NCBI GenBank assembly: GCA_025359065.1
Contig: JANYHM010000070.1
Span: forward strand, 1-55,333
DNA length: 55,333 bases
Reading direction: 5' to 3'
Origin: Synechococcales cyanobacterium GL140_1_metabinner_5_sub
GTDB taxonomy: Bacteria > Cyanobacteriota > Cyanobacteriia > Cyanobacteriales > Chamaesiphonaceae
Positions 6,218-9,386 of the stretch are shown piece by piece; the first letter of the stretch is position 1, and the number at the start of each line of letters is the position of its first letter. A program made the position numbers and the translations under genes. The notes beneath the pieces were generated by a model. It saw only the letters and a program-made list of their open reading frames with translations, ran no database searches and was not told the origin of the DNA.

Positions 6218-8176
6218 TTATAGCCGTATCCGATTTGACCATCTCTGACGTTGGATCTCGTATAGAGCCATTGCTGCTGCGGTAGCCGCATTCAGACTGG
6301 CGGTTTTACCGGTAAGTGGGATCGAAATCAAGAAATCGCAGGTGTTTTCGGTAAGTAAACTTAGTCCCTCACCTTCTGCTCCAATAACTACAACAACTGG
6401 CCCAGTGAATTTGACATCGTGGATAGCCATGGGGGCGGTAGCCACTGTGCCATAAATCCAGAATCCGGCTTCTTTAAGTTCTTGCAGGGCACGGCTGAGG
6501 TTTGTGACTCTAGCAACGGGCAGATGCTCTAGCGCCCCGGCAGCGACCTTTTGGACGCTGCTAGTGATACCTACGGCTCGCCGTTGAGGAATCACTAAAC
6601 CCTGAACACCAAGGGCTTCGGCAGTACGCACCATGGCACCCAAGTTTTGGGGATCGGTTAGGCTGTCAGCGACCAAAATTACCGGCTGCTCGTTGCCTTC
6701 TTTTGCTTTGGTAATGAGTTCTGTCAGATCCCAATAGTGGTAAGGAGCAACTTGCGCCACGATCCCTTGATGATTACCACCATCGCAAAGCTGATGCAGG
6801 CGGCGCACGTCTACTTCGTCTACTACGGTACCGGTGCCTTTGGCTTCGGTAACTAATAAATTGAATTGGGGATCGTAGCGGAGTTTGGGCAACAACCAAA
6901 TGCGATTGATCTGCCGACCGCTTTCTAAAGCACTTAGTACTGAATGCTTACCGTAGATAAAATCTTCGGAAGCTTGTTCTAGTGGTGCCGAAGATTCTTG
7001 GGCGTTGGGTTGTTCAAAATAAATGGTGTCGCCTTCTACTTTGTCTTTCGCAGCATATCTCTGATCGCCATAAGGTTTCCGAGGTTCACGGTCACCTTTG
7101 GTCTGAGCGAAGCTATCGTTTTGAAATCCGCCGCCATCCCTGTCGCCAAAAGACTTACGAGGCGCTCTATCATCACCACCAAACCGACTGTCCCCAAAAG
7201 ACTTGCGAGCTGGTCGATCATCCCGATCAAAGGACTTTCTGGGTGCCCGATCGGTTGGGTTAAATGGCTTCCGATCGCTAAATGGTTTGCGAGCTGGCCG
7301 ATCGAACCCAGCATCATCAAAAGATCTGCGCGGTGCCCGGTCGTCGCCACCGAAGCGACTGTCCCCAAAAGATTTGCGCGGTGCCCGATCTGTGGGACTA
7401 AACGGTTTGCGATCTGGACGATCTCCACCCCCAAAGGATTTTCTGGCTGGCCGATCGCCCTGATTTCCAGCATCATCAAAGGATCTGCGTGGTGCCCGGT
7501 CATCCCCACCAAAGCGGCTATCGCCAAAAGGTTTGCGCGGTGCTCGATCCGAGAAACCACCGTCTCTGTCGCCAAAGGATTTACGAGGCGCTCTGTCTGT
7601 GGGGTTAAATGGTTTGCGGGGACGATCAGAGAAGCTGCCGTCTCTATCACCAAAAGATTTACGGGGTGCTCGGTCATCTCCACCAAAGCGGCGATCGCTG
7701 TCAAAAGATTTTTTTGGCCGATCGGAGAAGCTGCCGCCGTCTCTGTCACCAAAGGATTTGCGAGGTGCTCTGTCATCTCTATCAAAGCGGCGTTCGCTCT
7801 CGAACTTACGGGCTGGGCGATTCCTATCCGAGGACGCTCCGCGAACGATTGGTGCGCCACCATCGCGGTTAAAAGGCTTGCGCGGTGGCCGGTCATCGCC
7901 GCCTCTGCTATCACGGTCAAAAGATTTACGGGGGGCGCGATCATTAGGATTAAATGGCTTGCGGGAAGCGAAGCTATCCCGTGGAGAATCGCCCTCAAAT
8001 TTACGAGCCGGACGATCCGAGCTGCCACCGTCTCTGTCGCCAAAAGTCTTGCGCGATGGCCGGTCATCGCCGCCTCTACTATCTGCTGTTCTGCGGGGCT
8101 TGCGATCGCGGGGGGTAGCGTCATCAGCACGACGACTACCAAAATTACCACCAGCTTTACGGGGTTTAAAAGGCAT
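6218..8176 (-). CDS. rlmB: 23S rRNA (guanosine-2'-O-)-methyltransferase RlmB/TrmH family, with very long repetitive N-terminus
   Basis: SpoU-type RNA 2'-O-methyltransferase. The catalytic module occupies about the last 250 residues: substrate-binding domain from [16 protein letters not shown], then the three SPOUT motifs [27 protein letters not shown] and [22 protein letters not shown], which build the deep-trefoil SAM site. Everything before, roughly 400 residues, is an Arg/Asp/Gly/Phe-rich tail made of degenerate units around '[14 protein letters not shown]', predicted to be disordered and RNA-binding-like. Typical RlmB is about 250 residues. I chose ATG at 8176; the reading frame extends to a TTG at 8197. 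The gene follows mrnC after 33 bp, the same pairing seen in many bacteria. Confidence 0.9.
7060..8150 (-). repeat. Degenerate tandem repeats encoding the RlmB N-terminal tail
   Basis: About 1.1 kb built from related 30-60-base units that encode variations on 'R-x-P-R-K-S/P-F-G/N-D/P' separated by 'DRDGG', 'SRFGGDD' or 'NPTDR'. Near-identical stretches recur (for example [11 protein letters not shown] four times and [11 protein letters not shown] several times). Because the repeats are in multiples of three, long open frames appear on both strands; these are by-products and not genes. Confidence 0.9.
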
Positions 8177-8209
8177 AAAAAATACTCGATCGCTCAAATG
8201 TCGATCGGC

Positions 8210-8638
8210 TCAAAGGGTAGCAGAGACCAAAACTATTTCTGCCAGCAGTGTTTGCAGGCGATGGGGATTGGTGAGGTACAGGTAGCCAATTAATGTTTCA
8301 AAACCAGTGGCTTGCTGGTATATCTCGGGACTAACGCGGCGTGGGCCGCCGCTGGCTGCATTGCGACCGCGCTTGAGCCAAGACAGCTCTAACTCGGTCA
8401 ACTTAGGCAATAGCAATTCCAAATGACGAGCCTGAGTCTCGGCTCGGACTTGAGCGACCACTTCCTGATGATAGGAATGCGGTCTCTTGAGGGGCATTAG
8501 TAAGCTGGTACGTACATATAGCTCGTAAACGGCATCGCCAATGTATGCCAAAGACACTGGTGATACCTGCTGTATGGGCAAAAATAACCCACCAATTGCC
8601 GGGAGGTTCGGCCAAATCTCTTCATCCAGATCGGTCAC
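8210..8638 (-). CDS. mrnC: Mini-ribonuclease III
   Basis: A 142-residue RNase III catalytic domain without a dsRNA-binding domain, the Mini-III architecture used for 23S rRNA 3'/5' end maturation. Diagnostic are LAYIGDAVYELYVRT (with catalytic Asp in IGDAVYE), the RAETQA helix, RRGRNA-like 'LKRGRNA' and the second catalytic site ATGFETLIGYLYL with its conserved Glu. The rlmB gene follows on the same strand. Mini-III and RlmB both act on 23S rRNA, so the pair is a small rRNA-maturation operon. Confidence 0.92.
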   Translation of the reverse strand: MTDLDEEIWPNLPAIGGLFLPIQQVSPVSLAYIGDAVYELYVRTSLLMPLKRPHSYHQEVVAQVRAETQARHLELLLPKLTELELSWLKRGRNAASGGPRRVSPEIYQQATGFETLIGYLYLTNPHRLQTLLAEIVLVSATL

Positions 8639-8776: not shown

Positions 8777-9145
8777 CTAGGCTGCTGGCACATTGGCTAG
8801 AGCATCATTCACCGAGGTTTGAATTGACAAGAATTTCTCTAGTCTTACCAATTTGACAGTTTGCATTACCCGAGCGTTGGCAATTACTTGCAAAGAACCT
8901 TCTACAGATTGGGTTTTTTTGACCAGTTTAACCAAAGCTCCTAAACCAGAGCTGTCTACGAAATCGATCTTAGAGAGGTCTAAGATAATGTGCGGTGGTC
9001 CATCTTCGATGAACTTGCCGACAACTTTTTGAAAAGTCGGCTCCGAAAAAGCGTCTAACAAACCGGTGAGCCGAAATACTTGACAAGTATCCTTGAGTTC
9101 TCGGGTGCCGCGTAGGCTGACCGTTAATGTGAGTGTTTCAGCGAT
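8777..9145 (-). CDS. STAS-domain anti-sigma factor antagonist, apparent AUC start
   Basis: A SpoIIAA-like STAS protein (partner-switching regulator); the phosphorylatable serine lies in DFVDSSGLGAL near residues 65-66. The first ATG/GTG/TTG in frame is a TTG at 9061, which would remove the first beta strands of the STAS fold. The frame continues upstream through TVSLRGTRELKDT and CQVFRLTGLLDAF, clearly STAS N-terminal sequence, up to a TAG at about 9156. Between that stop and TTG 9061 there is no AUG, GUG or UUG. A perfect AGGAGG lies 5 bases before an ATC at 9145-9143, so I start there (122 residues). A neighbouring ATC at 9148 is too close to the AGGAGG. No kinase partner is adjacent. Confidence 0.8.
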   Translation of the reverse strand: MAETLTLTVSLRGTRELKDTCQVFRLTGLLDAFSEPTFQKVVGKFIEDGPPHIILDLSKIDFVDSSGLGALVKLVKKTQSVEGSLQVIANARVMQTVKLVRLEKFLSIQTSVNDALANVPAA

Positions 9146-9386
9146 GATCGCCTCCTAACATCTGTCTCTTAGCAGTTCGCAATTGAAAATAGAAAATCGA
9201 GCATAGCAAGCTGCTTGGTGTTTGTCAATCTTAATATCAAAAATTCCTTCAGTCATGCAATATGTCTGATAGCTTTGCTTGCGCCATAGGCGATCAGTTA
9301 TTTATTAACAATACATCAGTAATTATTACTACAAAACAGCTAATTTTTTAGCTTGGATTTAGTTGAATTAATGCCGCTATTGCAGT

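Follow-up and report, generated by a model that had tools for sequence, protein, structure and literature searches.

A probable AUC start codon, conserved as AUU, AUC or AUA across cyanobacteria, in a gene for an Ssr1600-type anti-sigma factor antagonist

The window, i.e., the whole stretch of 55,333 nucleotides that was analysed, comes from contig JANYHM010000070.1 of Synechococcales cyanobacterium GL140_1_metabinner_5_sub. It carries on the minus strand a short gene for a STAS domain protein, followed by two genes that we take to code for a Mini-RNase III-like protein (mrnC) and, presumably, an rlmB-like protein. The features considered here are as follows.

8777..9145, minus strand: STAS coding sequence (Ssr1600-type anti-sigma factor antagonist); counted from ATC, it has 122 codons and the stop TAG; based on Pfam STAS, orthologues and AF2 match
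9143..9145, minus strand: AUC, the probable start codon; ATT, ATC or ATA at the same place in 247 of 252 distinct orthologous contexts
9151..9156, minus strand: Shine-Dalgarno (SD) sequence AGGAGG with a 5-nt spacer (9150-9146); read directly, conserved at -11 to -6 in orthologues
9155..9157, minus strand: in-frame TAG inside U-AGGAGG, which closes the frame upstream; read directly; 45 of 189 contexts have a TAG at codon -4
9059..9061, minus strand: TTG, codon 29, the first canonical in-frame start; rejected as start, as strands and invariant residues would go
9200..9228, minus strand: promoter-like TTGACA-17-TATGCT (10 of 12 matches), the second hexamer being preceded by TG; the site lies upstream of the start codon, with about 55 nt between them
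8210..8638, minus strand: Mini-RNase III-like gene, the downstream neighbour (linkage by tblastn)
6218..8197, minus strand: rlmB-like gene, after the Mini-RNase III-like gene (open reading frame list)

The STAS frame was found by direct reading to be open from ATC 9145-9143 down to TAG 8779-8777, and no in-frame ATG, GTG or TTG was present between TAG 9157-9155 and TTG 9061. A previous sequence-only reading of this DNA had described the frame, the AGGAGG, the absence of a standard start before TTG 9061 and an ATC at 9145 behind a 5-nt gap. All of these proved correct when re-read, and the upstream TAG, which had been placed at about 9156, could be located exactly at 9157-9155. The duplex of AGGAGG (9156-9151) with the anti-SD sequence was calculated at -11.7 kcal/mol. 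One feature on which the previous reading was silent is that two ATC codons occur in tandem in the window, at 9148-9146 and 9145-9143, so that there is a small ambiguity as to which of them is used. Two observations led us to choose the second one. The codon at its position hardly varies among orthologues, in contrast to the preceding one, which encodes Ile in 90 of 189 contexts; in addition, three Chamaesiphon-genus orthologues have their ATG exactly at the 9145-9143 position. With regard to the leader, the promoter-like site at 9200-9228 is weak evidence on its own, since one such site was found against 0.7 expected in shuffled sequences, and the predicted RNA fold of 9096-9205 was not better than that of shuffles (z +0.52). 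Besides, a 7-codon open reading frame in another frame of the minus strand (ATG 9161 to TGA 9140-9138) overlaps both the SD sequence and the start. It was considered as a leader or frameshift donor and rejected as a general explanation, because among 30 loci inspected by eye it was present only in the window and in the sister genome.

The protein encoded in the window matched the Pfam STAS family with an E value of 2.5e-16, and TM1442 and SpoIIAA were among the matches of a profile search. An AF2 model based on a 30-row alignment (pLDDT 83.5) placed strands at residues 3-6, 11-17 and 21-28 and resembled the structures 1vc1, 1thn and 1til with Z scores of 15.5, 15.4 and 15.2, respectively. The SpoIIAA and TM1442 structures superpose from window residues 8-10 on (Z about 15), and a protein that began at codon 29 would thus be predicted to lack the strands with which the domain begins. 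The DSSG motif (D64, S65, S66 and G67) was invariant in 30 sequences. By sequence comparison, the window gene is an orthologue of ssr1600 of Synechocystis. It has been reported in PMC12329169 that Ssr1600 of Synechocystis sp. PCC 6803 is an anti-sigma antagonist which is phosphorylated by Slr1861 (PmgA) and controls SigC. The DSSG phosphorylation site discussed there is common to both proteins, S59/S60 of Ssr1600 corresponding to S65/S66 of the window protein.

Orthologous loci were collected in draws of 30, 80, 30, 80, 30, 2 and 20, which gave 272 loci; 20 of these were dropped as duplicates by context, leaving 252 distinct contexts, and the repeats L281-L288 were kept outside the count. One of the 80-locus draws was made up of the best 80 of 585 relatives, and the named set therefore leans to Nostocales. 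All 40 genomes searched, the window's own included, had a STAS match at E 0.001, and in 38 of them the match was strong (1e-39 or better). In a draw over the phylum, an orthologue at E 1e-25 or better was detected in 185 of 386 genomes, all 185 carrying the label own, same order or same class, and the starts were read in part of these 185. Loci were obtained from 30 of 41 picocyanobacterial-like genomes. The alignment of four loci with N-terminal indels (L195, L211, L217 and L248), at first counted with the odd rows (8 of 189), was corrected by eye by 1-3 codons, after which three of them showed ATT with an SD sequence and one ATG without it. According to a tally made by hand, 42 of 43 family labels were covered, the remaining one (f28, a 75% complete genome) having given no orthologue. 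Two nearly complete genomes, G002 of the Chamaesiphon genus and G134, had no orthologue at the cut-off used, and the STAS gene may be lost at times, as in these two.

The codon at the start position was ATT in 172, ATA in 40, ATC in 35, ATG in 4 and CTG in 1 of the 252 distinct contexts, and GTG and TTG were not found there. ATT, ATC and ATA (ATH) together accounted for 247 contexts, or 248 non-AUG contexts if CTG is counted, and the first two bases were AT in all contexts except for the single CTG. Among the best 80 of 585 relatives, all 80 were non-AUG (ATT 62, ATA 11, ATC 7). Non-AUG starts were seen in 41 of the 42 family labels sampled, f24, represented by a single genome, having ATG only. 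A non-AUG codon at this position is conserved broadly over the cyanobacteria sampled. An alignment of orthologues had been proposed as a check on the AUC start, and its outcome was that the codon is mostly not ATG and drifts among ATT, ATC and ATA, which strongly supports the AUC initiation suggested by the sequence-only reading. We consider AUC 9145-9143 to be very probably the translation start of the STAS gene. For a regulator of a sigma factor, a putative non-AUG start in nearly every family label sampled is unusual in its breadth. In comparison, other STAS genes of the relatives, including the window genome, had a canonical start in 20 of 20 frames from 18 loci, these loci being a selection that covers part of the STAS matches of the 40-genome search. 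An assembly or sequencing error that converted ATG into ATC in this contig was another explanation to be considered. It had some prior plausibility and nothing else in its favor, and its probability appears negligible: the same ATC is present in the sister genome G001, and 246 further distinct contexts have ATT, ATC or ATA. As G001 is a separate assembly, a base-call error could be excluded for practical purposes.

Several features of the start codon set were examined further. In genus g78, ATA occupied the start position in 15 of 15 loci of one draw and also in L246; ATA is one transition away from ATG. We found no strong contrast between ATA at the start (40 of 247) and at internal Ile positions, where it made up 42 of 224 codons in genes with an ATA start and 103 of 1218 in the remaining genes, and therefore nothing is argued from ATA usage. 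At residue 2, 221 of the 247 ATH rows had Ala, Pro, Ser, Thr or Val, as is the case in proteins that lose the initiator Met according to the rule given in PMC13339759, which deals with other Synechocystis genes. The sole CTG among the 252 contexts was found in L228 (family f14), in which it is preceded by a strong SD sequence (AAGGAGGT).

The SD sequence reached -10 kcal/mol or better in 220 of 247 ATH rows (mean -11.4 kcal/mol); it was weaker than that in the remaining 27, the weakest being -6.0. For 156 control ATG reading frames from the loci of the best 80 of 585 relatives, which were taken from the most upstream ATG and some of which are therefore mis-started, the mean was 0.1 kcal/mol and none reached -10, suggesting that an SD sequence of such strength is unusual for these genomes. 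Of the 198 rows in which the SD match was 5 nt or longer, 147 had a spacing of 5 nt to the start. Positions -11 to -6 had more than 1 bit each, those from -20 to -13 at most 0.27 bit, and positions -2 and -1 about 1 bit with a preference for pyrimidines (U or C at -1 in 263 of 267 ATH loci). Conservation extends beyond the SD sequence and the codon, to -2/-1. Sequence conservation begins at the ATH codon, and upstream of it only the SD sequence and, more mildly, -2/-1 are conserved.

This profile is relevant to the idea that translation starts at a canonical codon further upstream and reads through the SD sequence, for example at a TTG located 11 codons up in many Nostoc-like loci. Upstream in-frame canonical codons were indeed present in 69 of 247 ATH rows (TTG 11 codons up in L219 and L290, ATG 15 codons up in L022), and the program that lists open reading frames selected the TTG in L081 and the ATG in L022. 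However, no canonical codon was found from the upstream in-frame stop to the ATH codon in 177 of 247 rows (in one more row the frame ran off the locus), the TAG closes the frame in the window itself, and the upstream residues are unconserved except for those in or beside the SD sequence. We regard this alternative as very improbable. In L081 (2468-2863) and similar Nostoc-like loci, the TTG chosen by the lister lies 11 codons up, before the SD sequence, and annotations of Nostoc-like genomes may be N-terminally wrong for the STAS gene. In genomes like that of the window, gene finders limited to ATG, GTG and TTG must mis-start this protein.

A downstream canonical start was also considered, at TTG 9061 in the window and at TTG or GTG codons 4-9 elsewhere, with the ATC left untranslated. 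For the window, this would remove strands 3-6, 11-17 and 21-28 of the AF2 model as well as residues T8, S10-T14, Q22, R25 and G28, which were invariant in 30 sequences, and TTG 9061 was rejected as a start. The N-terminal block recognized by the sequence-only reading contains these invariant residues, and it is the part that forms the three predicted strands. For the relatives, a canonical codon at positions 4-9 was present in 93 of 222 rows, and in 94 of the 247 ATH rows a canonical codon was absent both upstream, back to the in-frame stop, and before codon 16; for the rows with a canonical codon upstream or at positions 4-9 alone, another start is conceivable. The published start of Synechocystis ssr1600 also speaks for a downstream start, since its initiation codon is given in the methods of PMC12329169 as TTG, which corresponds to codon 7 here, six codons downstream of the conserved AUU. 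The numbering of that protein (S59/S60, L24, D25 and G43) is six lower than that of the window protein, which makes its residue 1 our codon 7. Against a start at this codon, it is TTG in only 31 of 252 distinct contexts, and it reads CTG or CTA in the two Synechocystis-like loci L219 and L290, both of which retain ATT with an SD sequence at codon 1. Moreover, the SD sequence is at the usual distance from the ATC and far from codons 4-9 or 29. Overall, a downstream start was judged improbable, and initiation at the AUC or its ATH counterparts was preferred.

The two loci L219 and L290 are informative for Synechocystis in another respect, because the antibody peptide specified for Ssr1600 in PMC12329169, apart from its leading Cys, forms the end of both their proteins. 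We infer from them that PCC 6803 itself probably has ATT at the homologous place. In that 2025 study, the TTG initiation codon of ssr1600 was changed to ATG for overexpression, and no discussion of a different ssr1600 start was found when the main text was searched for relevant terms. The published overexpression construct appears to begin six codons late and to leave out the native initiation control.

The four ATG rows are L010, L015 and L017, which belong to the Chamaesiphon genus and have ATG exactly at the ATC position, and L248 from another family, which was placed after a shift of two codons by eye. The SD sequence was absent in all four (2.0, 2.0, 1.3 and -0.4 kcal/mol). Parsimony over 227 rows gave about 19 third-base changes, of which 16 were among T, C and A, two to G and one from G to C. 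Since only two gains of G were needed, the four ATG rows represent about two events rather than four. The proportion of changes to G (2 of 19, versus about 26% at fourfold sites) is suggestive of third-base selection against G, although it is not significant alone. L019, also from the Chamaesiphon genus, shares residues such as Q29 with the three ATG rows of that genus, yet it has ATC and a strong SD sequence, and an ATG lineage may thus have reverted to ATC and regained the SD sequence.

In E. coli, proofreading by IF3 acts against AUU, AUC, AUA and CUG as start codons. If the same applies here, the strong SD sequence 5 nt upstream would hold the mRNA on the 30S and make up for a poor codon-anticodon match, the initiator fMet-tRNA would read AUC with a mismatch at the third position, and the product would begin with fMet-Ala-Glu-Thr-Leu, from which the initiator Met is probably cleaved, residue 2 being small. 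As IF3 discriminates against AUU, AUC and AUA, synthesis would be throttled at initiation, and it is reasonable to infer a low protein level from the AUC start; the sequence-only reading had proposed a low or IF3-responsive level. A possible reason for the retention of such a throttle over cyanobacteria is the role of the protein as the antagonist arm of a partner switch, the output of which would be set by the ratio of antagonist to anti-sigma factor; in Synechocystis, the switch would consist of Ssr1600, Slr1861 and SigC. Taken as a whole, the best reading is that initiation at a conserved AUU, AUC or AUA holds the amount of a dosage-critical antagonist down, and we assign it a probability of roughly 0.87. 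Within it, that the codon itself is kept in order to hold expression low seems likely.

A response of expression to IF3 or to initiation fidelity in vivo, by analogy with known genes, is possible, but we would give it somewhat less than even odds. A similarly tentative alternative accepts AUC initiation and opposes the IF3 part only: the weak codon could merely be a low set-point balanced against the SD sequence, with no response to IF3 or growth state. The ATG rows, which go back to two gains of G by parsimony, fit this alternative, as they lack the SD sequence, as if the expression level, rather than the codon or its sensitivity to IF3, were what is preserved. On the other hand, most third-base changes were exchanges among T, C and A (about 16), which leave the codon different from AUG; two led to G, and one was an apparent return from G to C. 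This suggests, if not conclusively, that the codon class itself matters. A comparison with S. aureus also bears on this question, because PMC13009471 describes that the AUA of ccpN responds to the medium and the AUU of cvfC1 does not.

The gene next to the STAS gene may be related to this question. Of 107 loci (tblastn, not de-duplicated) with at least 1.2 kb of sequence beyond the STAS gene, 105 had a Mini-RNase III-like gene downstream in the same orientation. A broader proposal would be that, across cyanobacteria, synthesis of the anti-SigC antagonist reads out the state of IF3 and the ribosome via its start codon; the capacity for initiation, along with the effects of Ci and light via the kinases of the antagonist, would determine how much of the growth-limiting RNAP-SigC is formed, the linkage to the Mini-RNase III-like gene, a gene of ribosome maturation, would follow the same logic, and selection would have prevented the codon from becoming AUG ever since the group's common ancestor. 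We consider this proposal speculative and, as a whole, rather unlikely.

Conserved non-AUG starts have rarely been described outside infC and a handful of genes. In E. coli, the AUU start limits expression of infC and pcnB, and that of infC provides autoregulation by IF3. These genes are unrelated to the STAS gene, and their dependence on IF3 is known from experiments. More similar are ccpN (AUA), cvfC1 (AUU) and infC (AUA) of S. aureus, which, like the STAS gene, have a non-AUG start behind a strong SD sequence on regulators; PMC13009471 gives reporter expression of about 10% of that from AUG, reaching as much as 30% in rich medium in the case of ccpN, and conservation of cvfC1 among staphylococci and of ccpN as far as B. 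subtilis. In contrast, the putative start of the STAS gene is kept across the cyanobacterial class, belongs to an anti-sigma antagonist and is known from comparison of sequences. For cyanobacteria, PMC8557916 reports a proteogenomic study of Nostoc sp. PCC 7120 in which peptides supported the use of ATA and ATT as starts, in eight revised genes and, with ATA, in two novel ones. Our literature searches found no report of a start other than AUG, GUG or UUG for ssr1600 or its orthologues, though an earlier report may exist. Therefore, the kind of start is already known from these E. coli and S. aureus genes, and what appears to be new is its occurrence in the STAS gene and its unusually wide distribution. 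The STAS gene offers a clear test of whether the weakness of a start codon is a regulatory input or an accident.

Since IF3 is involved in the proposed mechanism, the infC genes were also inspected. The infC of the window genome has GTG at its start, and no codon-based autoregulation by IF3 is suggested there. In the Chamaesiphon genus, all eight infC genes inspected (L158, L160, L162-L166 and L168) lacked an in-frame ATG, GTG or TTG in the stretch that runs from the upstream stop as far as the 20th codon, with ATC (seven) or ATA (one) where the window genome and most relatives have GTG; no clear SD sequence was seen at these eight starts. This resembles infC of E. coli and S. aureus, and by analogy may represent a separate gain of IF3 autoregulation. 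In seven other loci (L141, L151, L156, L157, L161, L167 and L169), infC reads ACG-CCT-GTG where some others have ATG-CCT-GTG, so that the start is either GTG or ACG as a further non-AUG start. L170, a second, divergent IF3-like gene of G013 which was left outside the infC count, had no canonical start near the N-terminus and showed ATC after GGAG. Finally, the N-terminal half of the rlmB-like product (6218-8197) is long, repetitive and rich in Arg, Asp, Gly, Ser and Lys, and the gene is overlapped by long open reading frames in other frames.
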